Program-made: the position numbers and the translations under genes
Notes under the pieces: generated by a model
What the model saw: the letters and a program-made list of their open reading frames with translations, nothing else
What the model was told of the DNA's origin: nothing
Database searches by the model: none
Virus record (IMG/VR): IMGVR_UViG_3300032579_000072
Coordinates: 1-24,128 of that record
DNA from: a virus
Direction: 5' to 3' (one strand)
DNA: 24,128 nt
In this document: in pieces, positions 3,651 to 18,049 of the stretch
Layout: each line of letters starts with the position of its first letter
Position numbering within the stretch: the first letter of the stretch is position 1

Positions 3651-4467
3651 TGTTGATTTCCTTTCTAATTGCTTGGAGTTTTGATAAAAACTTTGCTGTA
3701 GTATTGCCGTCAAATGTTTTTGTATAGGCTTCATTGACATCTCTAAACGCCTTTATCTTGGTGAATTTTTCCTCTGCTGTCATCTTGGTAGATTCATGGA
3801 TCTTGGCGTGCATCTCTGCGAAACCATCAATCCAATCATCTTTACAAACATAATGCGCATACGGAACATCATTACCAGGAACATACATCGGCAATGCCAT
3901 ATCAGGGATGTCATCAGGAATAGCGGAAAGATCCACTACGCTAGGAATGACTGATCCCATGTCTTTTAATACGGTAGGCTTGACGGTCTGGGTTTCGAAG
4001 TTTTCGACTTCATCTGGCGAGTAGAACCCCGTAACAGATCCAGGGAAAACTGATCTAATCCCCTCTGAAATACAACGGCTTCTGAGCATCGCTCTGGGAA
4101 ACTTTTGCCATCCGCTTCCTGGTTTAACAAGACCGATTTTGGTAGCTTGTCCAATGGTCCATGTAACCGCAAGGTTACCCCCGTTGGGATGTGAAAAAAC
4201 TCCTGTAACTTGCTCATCTGTGTATTCCTTCCATTCGACTTTGCCACCTGCATTTTGGAAACGGGCAAGCATCGCATCAGCCTTCAATGCGGGTCTGCCT
4301 TGGATTATGTGAAAGTCACGAGCTGCCGTTGCAGGATGTAAACCTTCCGCTTGTGCTACCGCCATTAGTGCTAAAACACTATTAGTGTCCTTCATACCAA
4401 ACAGACCAGACTTAGCTATTGCTTGTGCCATCTGCTCCATCTCGTTAAAACTAACGATATTGCTCAT
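3643..4467 (-). CDS. recT: RecT-like single-strand annealing recombinase
   Basis: The 274-residue protein has the layout of RecT/Bet-type annealing proteins. An N-terminal helical part is followed by GLHPATAARDFHIIQGRPAL (residues 42-61), KADAMLARFQNAGG (62-75), WTIGQATKIGL (103-113) and FPRAMLRSRCISEGIR (123-138). These segments form the conserved DNA-annealing core. The C-terminal third is less conserved and charged. Such proteins coat ssDNA made by a partner exonuclease and anneal it to complementary strands. The partner is encoded directly upstream (YqaJ-like, 4551-5450), separated only by a tiny frame, making a classic exonuclease/annealing pair. ATG 4467 follows a GGAG ribosome binding site. 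The family is clear, the symbol less so. Confidence 0.8.
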   Translation of the reverse strand: MSNIVSFNEMEQMAQAIAKSGLFGMKDTNSVLALMAVAQAEGLHPATAARDFHIIQGRPALKADAMLARFQNAGGKVEWKEYTDEQVTGVFSHPNGGNLAVTWTIGQATKIGLVKPGSGWQKFPRAMLRSRCISEGIRSVFPGSVTGFYSPDEVENFETQTVKPTVLKDMGSVIPSVVDLSAIPDDIPDMALPMYVPGNDVPYAHYVCKDDWIDGFAEMHAKIHESTKMTAEEKFTKIKAFRDVNEAYTKTFDGNTTAKFLSKLQAIRKEINNG

Positions 4468-4550
4468 GTAAATTTCTCCGCTAAAGTTAGGATTGTGTCG
4501 ATGACTGAGGATGCAGCCATTACATATATTGCGAGGTCAATGTTGTTCAT
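4464..4550 (-). CDS. 28-residue hypothetical hydrophobic peptide
   Basis: A short frame, MNNIDLAIYVMAASSVIDTI plus eight residues, fills the space between the exonuclease stop (4551-4553, directly adjacent) and the RecT-like start, whose ATG overlaps its TGA. The peptide is hydrophobic enough to be membrane-inserting or amphipathic. No ribosome binding site of its own is obvious, since the exonuclease gene ends immediately before it, so translation would depend on re-initiation. Its main effect could be to carry ribosomes from the exonuclease to the annealing protein gene. No family is recognised, and it may be only a leader frame. Confidence 0.35.
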   Translation of the reverse strand: MNNIDLAIYVMAASSVIDTILTLAEKFT

Positions 4551-5450
4551 TTATTTCACCAAAAATCTCCTACTGCCCATTGTTTCTACTACGAACTGCT
4601 CATAAATATCAGGCATGGCACTCTGAAACAGTGATGCTGAGAACTTCTTAGAGCTTTTAGAGGACTTCCAAGAAACTAATGTCTGTCCATCCACTGTTCT
4701 AATCTCCTGGCACTCTCCCATAAGATTACGGACAGCCACTTCAATCTGCTCCTCAGTAGCTTCAAGGTGTTTAATCTGATTCTTGACATCCCGTAATTGA
4801 GCGATAGCCAACTCAACTTGCTGTGTAGCCGTAACCACCGCAGTAGAGGATGACGGGTAAATGATCTTAGTTTGCTCAATTGTTTCTGCTGGCGGAAGCG
4901 TACCCGCTTGGCAATGACCCCAAACTGTAGCCATTTTCTGTATGAGATCATCTTTTTCTTGGTCTGAAATAGTAAATTCAAAGGTATGAAACTCTTGACC
5001 ACCAAATAAAACAGCCAAAAAGATCCGATTAACATTGTGGCAAGCAGCTTCGTGGACAAGTTGTGCGTAATCAGCATCAGGAATCCGATTAGTGTCGGGA
5101 TCAAACTTAGAGCGAACTGCTGCGTTGTAGTTTTTAGCTTCAACAAGCACACCACCATCAGCACTAATGAAATCAAAATGAGATTTAAACCAAGTATGCT
5201 TTGAATGGGTAATCGAATAATCAGCATCTTTTAACTCCATCTTTAAACGATCTTGAGCCAGCTTGCCAATCAGGGGTTGCATAACATGACCCATCTGCAC
5301 TGCTTCCACGCCTGAGAGGTCTTTTAACTCTTTCTTACCTTGCTTCTCTAGGATCACATCTACCATCTTGCCATTAGCGACCTTACGACTGTCACCAGAC
5401 CAGATAGCAGAACGCCTTATCTCTGGTGCAAAATCTGCTTGATCGTTCAT
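4551..5450 (-). CDS. YqaJ-type phage exonuclease (PD-(D/E)XK)
   Basis: The 299-residue protein has the lambda-exonuclease/YqaJ nuclease fold. GHVMQPLIGKLAQDRL (residues 54-69) is the alpha helix with the early acidic/Gln pattern. SHFDFIS contains the catalytic Asp93, and VLVEAKNY gives the Glu104-x-Lys106 pair. YAQLVHEA (128-135) provides the conserved Gln. The C-terminal part, about 210-250, is a predicted coiled coil (VELAIAQLRDVKNQI region), and the last about 60 residues are of unknown fold. Such enzymes resect double-stranded ends 5' to 3' to give ssDNA for the partner annealing protein, encoded just downstream. All catalytic residues are visible. The start overlaps the preceding gene by four bases (ATGA). 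Confidence 0.85.
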   Translation of the reverse strand: MNDQADFAPEIRRSAIWSGDSRKVANGKMVDVILEKQGKKELKDLSGVEAVQMGHVMQPLIGKLAQDRLKMELKDADYSITHSKHTWFKSHFDFISADGGVLVEAKNYNAAVRSKFDPDTNRIPDADYAQLVHEAACHNVNRIFLAVLFGGQEFHTFEFTISDQEKDDLIQKMATVWGHCQAGTLPPAETIEQTKIIYPSSSTAVVTATQQVELAIAQLRDVKNQIKHLEATEEQIEVAVRNLMGECQEIRTVDGQTLVSWKSSKSSKKFSASLFQSAMPDIYEQFVVETMGSRRFLVK

Positions 5451-8777: not shown

Positions 8778-9503
8778 CTAGTTTTTTAGACTTTGCTTAA
8801 CGATGACATTCTTTGACAGATCGAATGAATCAGAGGCGTTGGTGTAGATCAGGCGTGATAACACCTTGTCTTGATTGAAGATATTGTGGGTAGTCCACAT
8901 TGGACCAGTATCCACACCCTCGATTAACTGCACGCCTTTGCTAAGCACACCGATGTCAGTGACCGTGTAATGGCTCTCAAGAGTGCTAGGAACGATGCCT
9001 GTAGGATGGGTAGTAATGACTTTTAACCCCTCATTTGTTAATTCCATGACCCGTTTTTTAAAGAAATCCGCATTAAAGTCTGGTAATTGCCCTGACTGTG
9101 GGGGAGAGTTAATGACTAGGAGGTCAAACTCATACCTAGACTGCTCTCTCAGAGCAGGATACTCGAACAAGAGATCTTCCTTGCAAGCTATAGGCGAGGA
9201 AACTTCTAACAGGTCTGATAGATGGTCAAACCATTCCATGTGAAATTGCGCCCACTGCCGTCTAAGAGGGTGGTTGTGAAAGTAGTTGTCCCTGCCAATC
9301 CAAGCGTTAATAGAGCCTGGTGGGATGGATAGATCTGCTAAGAGGATGCTTACGCCCTCACACAAGGGTTGTAGCTGGCTATGGTACTGCGGATGGCAAT
9401 GGTGAACAAAGTCCATGTCACTATCTTGCTCACAAACCTTACGCAAATAGTTCAGATGAATAAGGTTATCGCCTAGATGATATTCGTTGTATGTGTGTAT
9501 CAT
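8778..9503 (-). CDS. GT-B-like glycosyltransferase (heptosyltransferase-related)
   Basis: The 241-residue protein begins with EYHLGDNLIHLNYLRK (residues 7-22), the G-D-x-(L/I)-x(2)-(L/N) glycine-rich start of GT9/heptosyltransferase-like GT-B enzymes. It ends with VITTHPTGI (162-170) and LIEGVDTGPMW (193-203). The latter resembles the conserved G-x-D-T-G-(P/A)-x-H/W segment that contacts the nucleotide sugar. It is shorter than full heptosyltransferases (about 320-350), so it is a compact phage version or a remote relative. Substrate is unknown. It is separated from the leftward train by the repeat-rich region and starts only 37 bases from the divergent rightward genes. No ribosome binding site is visible before ATG 9503. 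Confidence 0.65.
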   Translation of the reverse strand: MIHTYNEYHLGDNLIHLNYLRKVCEQDSDMDFVHHCHPQYHSQLQPLCEGVSILLADLSIPPGSINAWIGRDNYFHNHPLRRQWAQFHMEWFDHLSDLLEVSSPIACKEDLLFEYPALREQSRYEFDLLVINSPPQSGQLPDFNADFFKKRVMELTNEGLKVITTHPTGIVPSTLESHYTVTDIGVLSKGVQLIEGVDTGPMWTTHNIFNQDKVLSRLIYTNASDSFDLSKNVIVKQSLKN

Positions 9504-9516
9504 GGTAGTGTATGAT
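9487..9516 (+). promoter_or_regulatory. Candidate promoter for the rightward genes
   Basis: TTGTAT (9487-9492) and TATGAT (9511-9516) are 18 bases apart. The -10 matches consensus at five of six positions, the -35 weakly. Transcription would start near 9523, giving a short leader with AAGGAG before ATG 9541. It lies within the start of the divergent gene 8778-9503. Confidence 0.4.
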
Positions 9517-9540
9517 GAGTTAAGTTATAAGGAGAATAGC

Positions 9541-9756
9541 ATGACTATTGAAGTAGAAAAAAATATTCCCATACCCCCTGAGAAAAAGCGCAATGTGTAC
9601 CCATATAGGATTATGGAGATCGGTGAATCATTCTTTGTACCAGCGGGGAAGCTGCAAATTGTCTGTAATGCAAACTACAGAACAGGCAAACAATTGAATC
9701 GGAAGTTTATTGCTAGAAAAGACGGAGAAGGAATAAGAGTATGGAGAACGGAATAA
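9541..9756 (+). CDS. DUF7303-like small phage protein
   Basis: ATG 9541 follows a good AAGGAG site; the frame is open further upstream from 9487 but overlaps the divergent gene and lacks such a site. The 71-residue product has IPIPPEKKRNVYPYRIMEIGESFFVP (split here: IPIPPEKKRN, then YPYRIMEIGESFFVPAGK) and ends KFIARKDGEGIRVWRTE. The pattern IPIPP...YP-x(2)-M-x-(V/I)-G-(D/E)-SFFVP...K-x-R-x-G-x-G-x-RVWR is a widespread small phage protein family that I recall as DUF7303, function unknown. It is often encoded among early or regulatory genes. The start of the next gene lies inside its last codons. Confidence 0.75.
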   Translation: MTIEVEKNIPIPPEKKRNVYPYRIMEIGESFFVPAGKLQIVCNANYRTGKQLNRKFIARKDGEGIRVWRTE

Positions 9757-9971
9757 AAGATGCAGTATCAGTCCAGCAATACATTGAGAAGGCTGGGGAC
9801 ATTGCTAAGAAGGAATACATGACCAGAATATGGGCTATGACTAAAGATGACATCTTCCATGAGTTGATGCGGGTTCATGCCAAGTCCTCTGAACTGCTCA
9901 TGATGGCTGAAGCGGAGATTTTGCATCTCAAGAAACTGCTAGAGCCTGAAGATGGTGATTGCGTACACTGA
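9741..9971 (+). CDS. Helical hypothetical protein
   Basis: The 76-residue protein is almost all helix: AVSVQQYIEKAGDIAKKEYM, then TKDDIFHELMRVHAKSSELL and a leucine-rich EAEILHLKKLLEPE end. ATG 9741 lies inside the end of the preceding gene, with AAGAG just before. It ends CVH, overlapping the next gene by 20 bases. No motif is seen. A small-terminase-like helical role is possible because the large terminase gene is close and no clear small subunit has been found, but this is speculation. Confidence 0.6.
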   Translation: MENGIKDAVSVQQYIEKAGDIAKKEYMTRIWAMTKDDIFHELMRVHAKSSELLMMAEAEILHLKKLLEPEDGDCVH

Positions 9972-13068: not shown

Positions 13069-13650
13069 ATGGCTGTAGTAAATGATTTTCACTGTGCTAA
13101 ACACGGTTATTTTGAATCGAGGACTCCTAAATGTCCCATGAAAGGATGTAATGAAGAAGTTATGGTCGTATTTTTGCAAGCTCCTAACTTGGTCAGCGCC
13201 AAAACAAGATTTACGGACAAGTCCACCAAGCAACTCGCAATGGAGTTCGGAATGTCAGACATCAAAACCACCCGTGAAGGCGAGCACCAAGAAGGCTTCC
13301 TCGCCAAGAAAAACAAGTTCACCGAAAAAGAATACGCAGATGCCGAAAAGTTCGCAACCCGTAAAAAAGGAGTTGACAAAGACAAGCTCAAGCGTCAAGT
13401 CCCAACCCCGCAAGCGGAAGCCCCAAGGGAAGCCCGCCCTGGTGACGCAGCGGTCTGGGGTGGCGGAATGAAAGGCATGAATATGCAATCTATTCTTGCT
13501 GGACAATTCTCAAAACCTGTTGGACCGTTACTAGGTAAAGAACCTGAGGCTGCGGGCTTGACACCATCTCAGGCTGGTATAAACTCAGGACCTAGAGTTG
13601 ATCCATCTTCAACATTACGAGATCCTGAAAACTTACAGATTAAAAAATGA
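13069..13650 (+). CDS. Zinc-finger-like protein of the head gene block
   Basis: The 193-residue protein starts with a small metal-binding site: FHCAKHGYFESRTPKCPMKG with Cys9, His12, Cys22 and Cys27. The middle section is lysine-rich and helical (KTTREGEHQEGFLAKKNKFT and onwards). The C-terminal half is low complexity, rich in Pro, Ala and Gly (about residues 115-193), as in disordered head-interior or linker proteins. It starts two bases after the preceding stop and overlaps the portal gene by four bases. The role is unknown; a portal-associated or packaging accessory function fits the position. Confidence 0.6.
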   Translation: MAVVNDFHCAKHGYFESRTPKCPMKGCNEEVMVVFLQAPNLVSAKTRFTDKSTKQLAMEFGMSDIKTTREGEHQEGFLAKKNKFTEKEYADAEKFATRKKGVDKDKLKRQVPTPQAEAPREARPGDAAVWGGGMKGMNMQSILAGQFSKPVGPLLGKEPEAAGLTPSQAGINSGPRVDPSSTLRDPENLQIKK

Positions 13651-15281
13651 GAATACCTAGCGCACCCGAAGCAAGAGAAGATTTTTATTTAGACATCATT
13701 GCTAAGTGCCTGGTATCAAGAGATGCCCGCAAAGGTGATTACACCACTCAGCGGGCATATTATTTATTTGGCGCTGGACCTGAAGAACCACCAGCCTATT
13801 TCAACAAGATCAATCCGCACTTAGATCAGCTTACTAGCTTCCTCTATAGCTCGGAAACAACCCGCTTCTCTTTACAATTGGGCGCTTCAGTCCACGATAT
13901 GGAGCAGCGCAAAACACCACGATTGACTCAAGCACTCAATGACGAGTGGCTTAACTCCAATGCAGACCAAGTATTTTCGACTGCGTTGACTTGGTCATTG
14001 GTTTATAACACCACCTTTGTAAAGCTGGTTTATAACAACGGCATTAATCCTTACCTGATCGAGCCTGATTCTATCGGCATATTGCGTGAGGACACCCCTT
14101 ATACAGACAGGCAAGAAGCCATTGTACAAACTTACTACATGACAAAGTCGGAGCTATATGCCCGTCTGTATTCCCATCCAAAGCGTGATGACATCGTAAA
14201 GCGCCTCACGACTGGCACAAGAGTTAATGAATCAGAGATTCCTGAAGCAGTAAATCGTATTGTGATGAGTCAAACCAATCCGACTATCTATGGCAACATC
14301 AACCTTGATCTGTATGGAGTAAATCGCTACAAAGCTCAAGTAGCTGAAGATACAGTAGAGATGACTGAGTTGTGGGTGTGGAATGATGACACTTCTGATT
14401 ATCAAGTGGTAACTAGCGCAGCTCCTGGAATTATTATTTATGACCGACCAGGTGCATCCTTGTTCCTTAAAGGCGAATGTCCATTTGTTCAGATCTGCCC
14501 AAACCCATTGCCAACCTATTTTTGGGGCGCATCGGAAGTTCAAAAGCTCATGCAGCTTCAAACTTTGCTCAATGTGCGCTGGGTAGAGATTTTGGATCTA
14601 TTGTCCAAGCAAGTTAGCCCTCCAACAGCGTTGACAGGCTTTTCTGGCATCTTGGATGAGAAAAACTTTGCATTAAACCGTGCTGGTGGTCTTTTAAGCT
14701 CAGATATGCCCAACGCTAAGGCTGAACGCCTTGCACCGCAGATGCCACCTGATCTTTTTGAGGTTATCCACGAAATTAGCGCAATGTTTGAAGAAGTTTC
14801 AGGTATTGGCAATGTATTGCAAGGTAAAGGCGAGTCTGGCGTAAGATCGGCTGGTCATGCAAGCCAATTAGCTCGTTTAGGTTCTTCAAGAGCTAAAAAA
14901 CGGGCTTTGATTGTGGAAGATAGCTTGGAAAAGGTAGCAACACTGTATCTCAAGCTCATGCAAGCCTATGACCCAACACATTACAAAGATACTGAAGGCG
15001 TGCCGTTTATTGCAGAGCAGTTTACTAACGATTATGTTGTTAAAGTTGATGCTCACTCTAACAGCCCAATCTTTACTGAAGATACAAAGCAATTGGCGTT
15101 CAATTTATTTAAAGCTGGCGCAATTGACAAAGAATCTTTACTTGACATGGTGGAAGCTCCAGGTAAACAATTGCTTATACAGCGTTTGAAAAAGATGGAG
15201 GCGCAAAGTGGTGGTCAGCAAAAGCCTCCAGGTCATGCGCCTAAGGAAAAGCACCCAAAGAATGAACCAGGAGCAGCGTAA
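13647..15281 (+). CDS. Portal protein
   Basis: The 544-residue protein follows the terminase region and has portal-like features. An N-terminal part has RAYYLFGAGPEEPPAYFNKI (about residues 36-55). The central wing has a FWGASEVQKLMQLQTLLNVR segment (about 293-312), where the pattern G-x-S-x(3)-L-x(2)-Q-x(4)-N is typical of portals. A long crown/stem helix region includes MFEEVSGIGNVLQGKGESGV, where the GE-S-G-x-R-SA loop (about 395-405) is a common portal motif. The C-terminus is disordered and Lys/Pro-rich. It forms the dodecameric ring at one vertex through which DNA passes. The length is within the usual 450-700. Its start overlaps the zinc-finger-like gene and its TAA overlaps the next ATG. 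Confidence 0.9.
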   Translation: MRIPSAPEAREDFYLDIIAKCLVSRDARKGDYTTQRAYYLFGAGPEEPPAYFNKINPHLDQLTSFLYSSETTRFSLQLGASVHDMEQRKTPRLTQALNDEWLNSNADQVFSTALTWSLVYNTTFVKLVYNNGINPYLIEPDSIGILREDTPYTDRQEAIVQTYYMTKSELYARLYSHPKRDDIVKRLTTGTRVNESEIPEAVNRIVMSQTNPTIYGNINLDLYGVNRYKAQVAEDTVEMTELWVWNDDTSDYQVVTSAAPGIIIYDRPGASLFLKGECPFVQICPNPLPTYFWGASEVQKLMQLQTLLNVRWVEILDLLSKQVSPPTALTGFSGILDEKNFALNRAGGLLSSDMPNAKAERLAPQMPPDLFEVIHEISAMFEEVSGIGNVLQGKGESGVRSAGHASQLARLGSSRAKKRALIVEDSLEKVATLYLKLMQAYDPTHYKDTEGVPFIAEQFTNDYVVKVDAHSNSPIFTEDTKQLAFNLFKAGAIDKESLLDMVEAPGKQLLIQRLKKMEAQSGGQQKPPGHAPKEKHPKNEPGAA

Positions 15282-15442
15282 TGGCACAATCAATAGCACC
15301 AAAAGCAGATCAGCCAAAAGTTACAACTGAATCTTTAAAAAGAGGTGAAAAAGGTCCAGGTTTAGAGTATCGTACTCAAAGCACACCAAGTTTTAACCGT
15401 AGTCCAAAAATTAGGAATATGGGCAGGTCTATCAGGGGATAA
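15281..15442 (+). CDS. 53-residue hypothetical protein after the portal
   Basis: The ATG shares a base with the portal stop (TAATG). The product, MAQSIAPKADQPKVTTESLK and onward to NMGRSIRG, is basic, lacks hydrophobic core residues and is probably disordered. The gene is translationally coupled to the portal, so it is likely made in proportion to it. No motif is recognised. It is the first of three small basic products in a row. Confidence 0.6.
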   Translation: MAQSIAPKADQPKVTTESLKRGEKGPGLEYRTQSTPSFNRSPKIRNMGRSIRG

Positions 15443-15463
15443 ACTTAACTAGGAGATTTTGAA

Positions 15464-15505
15464 ATGCGTAAAGCTCACAAAAAATCACGCAAGTCTAAGC
15501 GTTAA
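15464..15505 (+). CDS. 13-residue basic micro-protein 1
   Basis: A strong AGGAG site (15451-15455), eight bases before the ATG, opens the frame MRKAHKKSRKSKR, nine of whose thirteen residues are Lys or Arg, followed by TAA. The same arrangement recurs at 15586-15627. A near-perfect ribosome binding site, in-frame stop and almost purely basic composition argue that both are translated. The composition is protamine-like, suggesting binding to DNA or RNA during packaging or to an acidic scaffold. It could also be a leader peptide. I know no named family. Confidence 0.55.
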   Translation: MRKAHKKSRKSKR

Positions 15506-15526
15506 TTGGTTTTCCTTCACGGGAGA

Positions 15527-15550
15527 AAAGGGTGTGGCTGCCTTCCCTTT
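15527..15550 (+). repeat. Hairpin between the micro-protein genes
   Basis: AAAGGG (15527-15532) pairs with CCCTTT (15545-15550); inside the loop GGC and GCC can pair further. There is no T-run after it, so it is more likely an RNA processing or stability element than a terminator. Confidence 0.4.
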
Positions 15551-15585
15551 GAAATAGGTGACCGCTTCTTTAAGGAGTCATTCAC

Positions 15586-15627
15586 ATGGCACGCAAAGCT
15601 CGCAAAGGTCGTAAAGCACGCAAGTAA
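15586..15627 (+). CDS. 13-residue basic micro-protein 2
   Basis: AAGGAG (15572-15577) lies eight bases before the ATG of MARKARKGRKARK, followed by TAA. Eight of thirteen residues are Lys or Arg, in an ARK/GRK repeat pattern. It shares length, composition, spacing and position with micro-protein 1, but the sequences are not close copies, which suggests selection for composition. See the findings for tests. Confidence 0.55.
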   Translation: MARKARKGRKARK

Positions 15628-15637
15628 TCCGTAAGGG

Positions 15638-15695
15638 TTATTTCGGGCAGACCGAATAAGTCCTAGAGGGGGAGGGAAACTAAATAATTCCCCCC
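15638..15695 (+). repeat. Two hairpins before the capsid-block promoter
   Basis: The first stem pairs TTAT-TCGG (15638-15646, one bulged T) with CCGA-ATAA (15652-15659). The second pairs GGG-GGGAA (15670-15678, one bulged A) with TTCCCCCC (15688-15695) around an AT-rich loop. They end three bases before a TTGACA promoter element. They may reduce read-through from the portal transcript, though no T-run is present. Confidence 0.5.
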
Positions 15696-15697
15696 AC

Positions 15698-15725
15698 TTG
15701 ACAATTGATAGATTAAGATTACGAT
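15698..15725 (+). promoter_or_regulatory. Sigma70-type promoter of the scaffold/capsid genes
   Basis: A perfect TTGACA (15698-15703), a 16-base spacer and TACGAT (15720-15725, four of six to consensus) place a start near 15732, about 20 bases before the next ATG (15751). The perfect -35 in an intergenic region right before the capsid-assembly genes, preceded by strong hairpins, makes this the best promoter in the window. Confidence 0.65.
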
Positions 15726-15750: not shown

Positions 15751-16257
15751 ATGTCAGTACCTTCAGACCAACTGATGCAGATGATTAAAAGCCAAAGGGA
15801 TAAAGCAACCCCTGCTGGCGTTCCTCCAGCGCCTGAAGCACCAACGGGTATGTCTGAAAACAGTGCAGCTCCGATGTCATCTCCGATGAGCACCCCAGAA
15901 CCAAAAATGGGAAATCGTGAAGCAGCCATGATTAACTTATCTATGGCTCAAGACTTGTTAGAACAAGCTCTCCCAGCCGTAGGATCTGATTCCGAAGAAG
16001 GTCGCTCCATTTTAGGGGCGATTAGCACATTGAACAAAGTCATTGGACCTAAGAAATCCAAGACAAATGAATTGCAACCTACTGAAATCATGCAGATGTT
16101 GCAAACATTGCCTCAAGCTGGTGGTGCAACGGCTGAAGGAAAAGCAATGGCACAAGCACCACAAATCCCAGGTATGTCAGCCCAAGTACCACCTCCTGCG
16201 CCTCCTGGTGCTGGCGGTTTACCAGGCGGTCAACCTTCCGCAACTCCACAAATGTAA
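15751..16257 (+). CDS. Proline/alanine-rich head assembly protein (scaffold-like)
   Basis: The 168-residue protein has an N-terminal short helix (SDQLMQMIKSQRDKA), then a low-complexity stretch rich in Pro, Ala and Ser (about 19-52), and a helical centre (REAAMINLSMAQDLLEQALP, LGAISTLNKVIG). It ends in a Pro/Gly/Gln-rich tail (PPPAPPGAGGLPGGQ). This mix of disordered and helical parts, before the coiled-coil scaffold-like gene and the capsid gene, suits an assembly or internal head protein. The family is not recognised. It is the first gene after the promoter at 15698-15725, so it probably leads the late assembly transcript. Confidence 0.55.
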   Translation: MSVPSDQLMQMIKSQRDKATPAGVPPAPEAPTGMSENSAAPMSSPMSTPEPKMGNREAAMINLSMAQDLLEQALPAVGSDSEEGRSILGAISTLNKVIGPKKSKTNELQPTEIMQMLQTLPQAGGATAEGKAMAQAPQIPGMSAQVPPPAPPGAGGLPGGQPSATPQM

Positions 16258-16471: not shown

Positions 16472-16996
16472 ATGAGTTTAGAAGATCTTTCGTTTGAACA
16501 GCGTGATGAATTGGCAATGTTGGCTAAGCAATTAGCTGATAACCCACAAACACGCAAAGAATTTTTACGCATGACTAAACAGGTCAAGCCTGAAATGTCC
16601 ATTCCTGAACTTGAGATTGAGGATTACACCAATAAAAAGGTGACCGCTGCTGAAGAACGGGTAATGAGATTAGAGGCTCAATTGCGTGATAGAGATGCAA
16701 GAGAAGAACTTGAAAAACGCAGAGCAAAGTTAAATCGCTCTGAAAAAGAAATTGCTGAAATTGAAAAAGTAATGCTTGAAAAAGGCATGACCAATCATGA
16801 AACAGCAGCCGAGTACTTCGATTGGATGAATCAAGCAGCAGCTCCAACGCCTAATTCGGCAATGGGGTATAACCCAAGCGCACTGAATAAGTTTGACCTT
16901 TCTAAGTATTGGAAAAACCCACAGATGGGCGCAAGGGATGAGGCATCAAAAGCATTGCAAGAGTTGCGTAAAAACACTCGACCAATTGGTATTTAA
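16472..16996 (+). CDS. Scaffolding-like coiled-coil protein
   Basis: The 174-residue protein has a first helical part (FEQRDELAMLAKQLADNPQT), then a long charged coiled coil at about residues 55-110 (VTAAEERVMRLEAQLRDRDA onwards). The C-terminus is less ordered, with FDLSKYWKNPQMG and a basic KALQELRKNTRPIGI end. Highly charged coiled coil plus a basic C-terminal tail, just before the capsid gene, is the usual signature of phage scaffolding proteins, which guide capsid assembly and then leave. GGGGA lies about nine bases before the ATG. No protease is seen, so removal may not need cleavage. Confidence 0.65.
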   Translation: MSLEDLSFEQRDELAMLAKQLADNPQTRKEFLRMTKQVKPEMSIPELEIEDYTNKKVTAAEERVMRLEAQLRDRDAREELEKRRAKLNRSEKEIAEIEKVMLEKGMTNHETAAEYFDWMNQAAAPTPNSAMGYNPSALNKFDLSKYWKNPQMGARDEASKALQELRKNTRPIGI

Positions 16997-17038: not shown

Positions 17039-18049
17039 ATGCCTATAGGTGGCGGAATAGTCCCAGCATCAGGATCAAGCCAATACAATGAGCTTACTTA
17101 TGTAACTCGTAGAGCGTTTATCCCCAAGCTGGTAGTACAACTTTATAACAGCACACCATTGATGGCTGCGTTGATTGCTAACAGTCAATCTGCTTCAGGC
17201 GGTGTATCCCAAGTAACCGTGCCAGTTCAAGGCGCTCAGTTTGTTAACGCACAGTGGTCTGACTACTCTGGTTCATTCAACCAGCCAGCAGTTCAGCAAG
17301 GTGCTTTTAATGCTGAGTTCAACTTGAAATTGATGATTGCCCCAGTACCGTTCCTCGGTATGGAAGGCGCAGTTCAGCAAGATTACGCAATCATCCCTCT
17401 CATTGAAGCTCGTATGAACGATGCAACCAATGTGATGATGGATGCGATGGCTACAGCACTTTACACAAACTACACCAACACTCAACAGTTCATTGGCTTG
17501 CCAGGCGCTATTGATGATGGTACAAATATGCAGACTTACGGTAACATCAACCGTTCTACCTATACATGGTGGCAGTCTAAGGTGTACAACGCTGGTTCTG
17601 TAAACCCAACTCGTCAAAATGTACTTCAATACATTTCTGGTACAGTTAAGAAAGGTGCTGAAGTACCTACTTTTGGTGTTTGCGGTTTCGGTACATGGAC
17701 ACTCTTGGCACAAGACTATGTTGGTCAAGAACAGTATGTAATTACCCCAGGACACGGCTTTGATAGCGACTCCAACGGTCCTCAAGCAGCTTTCCGTGCT
17801 TTGATGGTAGCTGGTGTTCCAATCTATCCAGACCCATATTGCCCAGAAGGTACTTTGTACTTCATTAACAGCAACTACATGAGCCTCTACATCCACGATC
17901 AGGGTTCATTCGTATTTACTGGTTTTGAATCTACACTTCCTAACTGGCAGATCGGTTATGTTGGCGCAGTTTTGATGATTGCCGAATTGGTAAGCACCAA
18001 GCCTAAGTCAATGACCCGTGTGCAGGGTTATAACTCTATTTCACTATAA
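17039..18049 (+). CDS. Major capsid protein
   Basis: The 336-residue protein has the position (after portal and scaffold) and composition of a HK97-fold capsid protein. An N-terminal arm (GGGIVPASGSSQYNELTYVT) is followed by a helix (RAFIPKLVVQLYNSTPLMAA) and a beta-rich region with VTVPVQGAQFVNAQWSDYSG (E-loop-like). A spine-type helix (IPLIEARMNDATNVMMDAMA) comes next, then an A-domain with ALMVAGVPIYPDPYCPEG and a closing YVGAVLMIAELVSTKPKS. The A-x-M-V-x-G-(V/I)-P-(I/V)-x-x-D segment is common in capsid proteins. A good ribosome binding site (CGGAG) precedes it. No N-terminal prohead cleavage region is evident. The fold assignment is inferred. Confidence 0.85.
   Translation: MPIGGGIVPASGSSQYNELTYVTRRAFIPKLVVQLYNSTPLMAALIANSQSASGGVSQVTVPVQGAQFVNAQWSDYSGSFNQPAVQQGAFNAEFNLKLMIAPVPFLGMEGAVQQDYAIIPLIEARMNDATNVMMDAMATALYTNYTNTQQFIGLPGAIDDGTNMQTYGNINRSTYTWWQSKVYNAGSVNPTRQNVLQYISGTVKKGAEVPTFGVCGFGTWTLLAQDYVGQEQYVITPGHGFDSDSNGPQAAFRALMVAGVPIYPDPYCPEGTLYFINSNYMSLYIHDQGSFVFTGFESTLPNWQIGYVGAVLMIAELVSTKPKSMTRVQGYNSISL

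Follow-up and report, generated by a model that had tools for sequence, protein, structure and literature searches.

The window analysed here, a 24.1-kb stretch of DNA from a virus record, carries two very short and strongly basic open reading frames between its portal gene and its capsid gene. Such frames are referred to below as micro-ORFs and labelled A, B, and C in 5' to 3' order, and the gene order around them is terminase, portal, 53-aa ORF, micro-ORFs, 168-aa ORF, 61-aa ORF, 174-aa ORF, and capsid (Table 1). A preliminary description of this DNA had reported two 13-residue frames, each preceded by a ribosome binding site at eight-nucleotide spacing and closed by TAA, and both are present as described; its count of nine and eight Lys/Arg residues is correct for C (eight), while B also has eight and reaches nine basic residues only when His is counted.

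Table 1. Features surrounding the micro-ORFs, in coordinates of the window.
Feature	Position	Strand	Characteristics and basis
Portal protein gene, upstream neighbour	13647..15281	+	Pfam SU10_portal E 3e-12; PHROG portal
53-aa ORF between portal and micro-ORF B	15281..15442	+	Sequence
Shine-Dalgarno AGGAG of micro-ORF B	15451..15455	+	8-nt spacer to ATG; sequence
Micro-ORF B, MRKAHKKSRKSKR	15464..15505	+	13 aa, 8 K/R, acidic residues 0; ATG, TAA
H-type RNA pseudoknot	15527..15565	+	S1 15527-15532/15545-15550; S2 15534-15543/15556-15565; covariation
Shine-Dalgarno AGGAG of micro-ORF C	15573..15577	+	8-nt spacer to ATG; sequence
Micro-ORF C, MARKARKGRKARK	15586..15627	+	13 aa, 8 K/R, (RKx)-repeat; ATG, TAA
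Three predicted hairpins after C	15624..15699	+	Folding
Promoter-like TTGACA-16-TACGAT before next gene block	15698..15725	+	Sequence
168-aa Pro/Gln-rich ORF, downstream neighbour	15751..16257	+	Conserved partner in relatives
174-aa ORF, putative scaffold	16472..16996	+	Position ahead of capsid gene; coiled-coil look
Major capsid protein	17039..18049	+	PHROG 9953 major head protein, E 3e-36

Among the neighbouring genes, the 174-aa ORF appears scaffold-like, judging by its place before the capsid gene and its coiled-coil look, and family searches with it (Pfam, PHROG) gave no match. AlphaFold on the capsid protein returned no usable fold (pLDDT 30), and a tRNA search of the window found none. 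The 53-aa ORF is conserved, and is retained in the loci examined from a clade that has lost the micro-ORFs. Of 92 intervals from relatives, 87 have a TTGAC element no more than 160 nt from the next gene, and the micro-ORFs are probably expressed with the portal transcript, at its end, ahead of this TTGAC promoter.

A portal search of IMG/VR yielded 80 loci, and nearly all of those with sufficient reach carry frames at the same place. Micro-ORFs, defined as frames of 10-20 aa with at least 45% Lys/Arg and a ribosome site, were counted in 159 unique complete intervals, each bounded by the portal stop and the conserved gene that follows, in sequences retrieved with the portal, with the capsid protein, and, in a single fetch, with a peptide pattern. 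The short basic frames that the preliminary description proposed seeking in relatives occur in 139 of the 159 intervals (257 in total), with two copies in 96, one in 32, three in 11, and none in 20. Since the reverse strand of these intervals gave 0 and dinucleotide shuffles a mean of 0.6, a chance origin was rejected. Micro-ORFs are also carried by 72 of the 92 intervals not fetched by peptide pattern, which supply 56 distinct peptides. Taken together, the 133 peptides of these pattern-independent loci consist almost entirely of K, R, A, S, G, M, H, T, Y, and C, with 1 acidic residue among them, and the traits of the family are a length of 11-16 aa, a Lys/Arg content of about 60%, and practically no acidic or large hydrophobic residues.

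Both frames are present in GenBank MW202753 and MW202825 (portal match 72-74%), in neither of which does any annotated gene correspond to them, as the preliminary description had expected of gene callers with a length cut-off. In MW202753, two antisense hypothetical CDS have been called over the micro-ORF region (4740-5038, equivalent to 3356-3654 of L081). Searching 50,697 phage records revealed no cultured relative, the matches being two uncultured spring assemblies only, and host clues come from only six MAG contigs of mixed taxa, possibly mis-binned, two of which are labelled betaproteobacterial. Carriers originate from many samples, and constitute a group of tailed phages that is widespread and hardly represented in culture.

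The position of the micro-ORFs was surveyed through three peptide-pattern scans over 2.9 million viral contigs. Among the matches listed for the first pattern (MARxxRKGRKxRK), all placed ones adjoin this portal or its downstream neighbours. The second (MARKxRRxKRK) gave 7 matches, all in the portal neighbourhood, six adjoining portals of 28 to 63% identity and the seventh (L305) adjoining the downstream gene, and the third (MYKKMKRGRKTR) gave 78 matches, of which all 51 new ones adjoin the portal or its downstream neighbour. In whole or near-whole carrier genomes, good matches are found only at the portal locus, with a few weak candidates elsewhere. In the carrying intervals and in every placeable pattern match alike, the micro-ORFs adjoin the portal and precede the putative scaffold/capsid block. 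No comparable array was seen near the capsid gene of very distant capsid phages (Mx8, BUCT555, TM7 phage, and ppBjS10J-1; 22-26% capsid identity), and scanning the text of 5.39 million papers for the peptide strings gave no match. Other arrays of tiny basic ORFs were observed after the portal of L289, a distant relative (12, 19, ~29, and ~32 aa; 3997-4517), and in L303 (an 11-mer plus three further ORFs of 16-29 aa; 9256-9770 of the reverse complement). Family searches need at least 20 aa, more than the micro-ORF peptides offer, and a PHROG search with the longer basic ORFs nearby in L289, L303, L287, and L279 gave no match.

Pooled in-frame pN/pS is 0.28 for A (9 sequences), 0.44 for B (57 distinct), and 0.24 for C (64), groups whose sorting by motif somewhat lowers pN, compared with 1.6-4.5 in the other two frames. 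The identical peptide MARKARKGRKARK is written in 23 synonymous codings with as many as 10 base differences, and 22 exist for MYKKMKRGRKTRR; identical peptides are kept among phages whose portals are only ~70% alike. In relatives, with non-ATG starts added at a later step, 382 frames start with ATG and 23 with GTG, and 400 of 405 stop with TAA, the ribosome site being demanded by the micro-ORF finder; GGAG lies 5-9 nt from the start in most relatives, for the most part at 6-8 nt. These patterns strongly support selection on the amino-acid sequence of the peptides, and because evolution has kept that sequence, we regard the micro-ORFs as real genes. Their interpretation as genuine, overlooked micro-genes is thus strongly supported by conservation, pN/pS, and synteny, and the frames proved neither unconserved nor frameshifted in relatives, the outcome named beforehand as speaking against them.

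Several relatives carry a third frame, A, ahead of B, encoding MARKxKKGRKSCK and ending in SCK. Given that the ancestral form of B, MYKKMKRGRKTRR, aligns without gaps to C, MARKARKGRKARK, across all 13 residues, A, B, and C are most plausibly tandem paralogs of old origin, with the window peptides belonging to a family of up to three copies. Residue 12 is Arg or Cys (SCK, GCK, and ACK endings) in several paralogs, namely the A-type peptides and those of L310 and L330. Deep clades retain length and composition only (MARKTRRSKRKSKR; MARRGRRVKRGKK with MRKSHRAKRKSRR; MARKMKRARRKAKR; MARKSRRHKRK with MARRMRRHKRK). The proposal that selection acts on composition, and that B and C are not a recent copy, was therefore half right: it applies solely between the deepest clades, where likeness reduces to length and composition, whereas within clades the sequence is conserved, B and C can be aligned, and relatives hold a third copy.

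On the portal tree, whose long branches make deep joins uncertain, carriers of micro-ORFs are found to either side of the midpoint root. Loci without them form one clade (L212, L253, L279, and L287) and, apart from it, L290, implying at least two losses; in L287 and L279 a 20-aa basic ORF stands in place of the micro-ORFs. Near-complete genomes of one micro-less lineage measure 35.6 and 35.7 kb versus 34.2-36.3 kb in four carriers, a fifth carrier of 31.6 kb being possibly a fragment. With losses in at least two lineages and no smaller genome in the one examined, the micro-ORFs are not universally essential. A variant cassette, MKMRKARKGRKARK together with a changed knot sequence, turns up repeatedly in different clades (L005, L048, L062, and L066), which suggests recombination of the unit.

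The RNA between and after the frames is structured, although differently from what was first described. Instead of the stable hairpin proposed between B and C, where the 80-nt fold is not unusually stable (z = +0.23), we find a covarying H-type pseudoknot whose 3' end lies ~20 nt upstream of the C start codon; ordinary minimum free energy prediction misses it because nested folding cannot represent pseudoknots. In 27 distinct sequences, 95.6% of its cells are paired compared with 81.7% in shuffles, a percentage favoured by the choice of sequences for a recognisable motif from which the structure was also read. The double changes (39 versus 10.7 shuffled; 0 of 500 shuffles) are stronger evidence for the pseudoknot than this percentage, and the covariation score is 0.399 versus 0.127 shuffled, with the signal destroyed on sliding the partners. 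A tandem U.G/G.U step is present without variation in all 27 sequences, and the window clade has one C.A mismatch, in S2. The motif was recognised in 45 of the 72 intervals with micro-ORFs and in 0 of the 20 without, and the pseudoknot also precedes a micro-ORF in the deep clades L303 and L304.

The second proposed hairpin fared better: the structure after C is somewhat stabler than shuffles (z = -1.84, with 8 of 200 shuffles as stable). It directly precedes the TTGACA-N16-TACGAT promoter-like site, and since its hairpins lack a U-run it is not a canonical intrinsic terminator. An Rfam search of the window at gathering thresholds found no match, and the sole Rfam match in the region was antisense and at chance level (E 5.9); a known RNA family for the pseudoknot was accordingly rejected at the thresholds tried.

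The closest phage parallel in kind is the microvirus J protein of ssDNA tailless phages, of ~24-38 aa, which binds DNA and accompanies it into the capsid. Like J and the gokushovirus J-like proteins, the micro-ORF peptides are very small, highly basic, phage-encoded, and specified within the head module, and like protamines and J they are without a hydrophobic core; unlike J, they are 11-16 aa long, are encoded by tandem paralogs in dsDNA tailed phages, and are only putatively virion components. Adenovirus proteins VII, V, and Mu and baculovirus P6.9 are likewise basic and bind packaged dsDNA, which the micro-ORF peptides do only putatively, although these core proteins belong to eukaryotic viruses; adenovirus protein VII has been called protamine-like (PMC4189039). 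T4 gp32 represses its own translation via a pseudoknot, possibly the sole viral example according to a 2010 review (PMC3014915). As with gp32, a covarying H-type pseudoknot lies 5' of the start codon of micro-ORF C, whose product may similarly bind nucleic acid. However, the T4 knot has another sequence and lies ~67 nt upstream, compared with ~20 nt here, and gp32 is a large ssDNA-binding protein, whereas the products here have 11-16 aa and regulation of C by the knot is putative. Small phage genes were predicted by Fremin et al. (2022), and as cited in PMC11323111 these predictions resemble the micro-ORFs in being overlooked, conserved short phage frames.

Our best reading is that the micro-ORFs encode late micro-proteins that bind nucleic acid and function in the head or in packaging, possibly autoregulated via the pseudoknot. 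In its specific form, which we hold tentatively and at slightly below even confidence, they are selected, unfolded polycations that bind the genome or the prohead interior in a dose set by gene copies and the pseudoknot. Binding to nucleic acid would be non-covalent, with the phage genome or the prohead interior as the likeliest site while DNA is being packaged, and the bound peptides may ease charge repulsion within the head, by analogy with microvirus J or the basic core peptides found in certain eukaryotic DNA viruses. Gene copy number would set the dose, and the pseudoknot before the second gene would control ribosome access to C and thereby adjust it. A copy number of one to three with repeated gain and loss fits a product that acts by dose or by charge.

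Protamine-like condensation of packaged DNA by the peptides is plausible, and neutralising much of a 35-kb genome would require thousands of +8 peptides per head. That at least two lineages do without the peptides, and that genomes are no different in length in the one examined, speaks against condensation as an indispensable role, the peptides not being needed wherever the same genome is packaged; similar genome lengths with and without them also indicate that head filling does not require them. We consider it fairly unlikely that these tandem polycations of 11-16 residues both neutralise or condense packaged dsDNA in tailed phages, in protamine-like manner, and feed back via their own pseudoknot.

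The pseudoknot hints at RNA recognition instead of genome binding. The peptides might be RNA-binding regulators akin to arginine-rich-motif peptides: by recognising the knot, or else the hairpins that follow C, they would lower or raise translation of their own genes or of late genes. The strong covariation and invariant U.G/G.U step of a knot directly upstream of C, its recognition in none of the intervals without micro-ORFs, its place ahead of the micro-ORF in deep clades too, and the gp32 precedent of own-mRNA repression (PMC3014915) all favour such regulation; on the other hand, the 27 of 72 carriers without a recognisable knot, and likewise L206-L209, L211, and L214, keep their micro-ORFs, and the knot may merely tune ribosome access and bind nothing, and we regard this role as fairly improbable.

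Strict placement between the portal and putative assembly genes would also suit assembly cofactors that bind an acidic patch on the portal, capsid, or 174-aa protein (net charges -12, -6, and -2, respectively) and steer prohead assembly or scaffold release, as would the conservation of sequence, rather than of charge alone, within clades. Such a role seems quite improbable, as the window holds no strongly acidic partner and a comparison of gene content between carriers and non-carriers singled out none, a profile confounded by phylogeny since presence follows clade.

Hosts are a frequent target of small phage proteins (review PMC11323111), and late action on the ribosome, nucleoid, an RNase, or the membrane might be envisaged, but the locus belongs to the head module rather than to the early genes, the peptides show no hydrophobic or amphipathic pattern, and carriers come from many samples, which makes host-directed peptides distinctly improbable. 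Control of mRNA stability or of downstream translation by the act of translating short K/R runs, rather than by the peptide, would account for short frames with strong ribosome sites and adjoining RNA structures without requiring any other gene product, but is highly improbable given that codons drift while the amino-acid sequence is conserved, that a promoter-like site of its own precedes the next gene block, and that the paralogs stand in tandem and do not each lead a gene.

The micro-ORF peptides are near the lower limit of gene size and are nevertheless conserved, offering an unusually clear test case of how 11-13 residues form a selected gene product. They open the question of whether tailed phages employ protamine-like peptides, and of whether phage pseudoknots regulate genes other than T4 gene 32. 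If condensation with feedback through the knot were true, the micro-ORFs would represent a widespread family among the shortest conserved head-module genes of phages.
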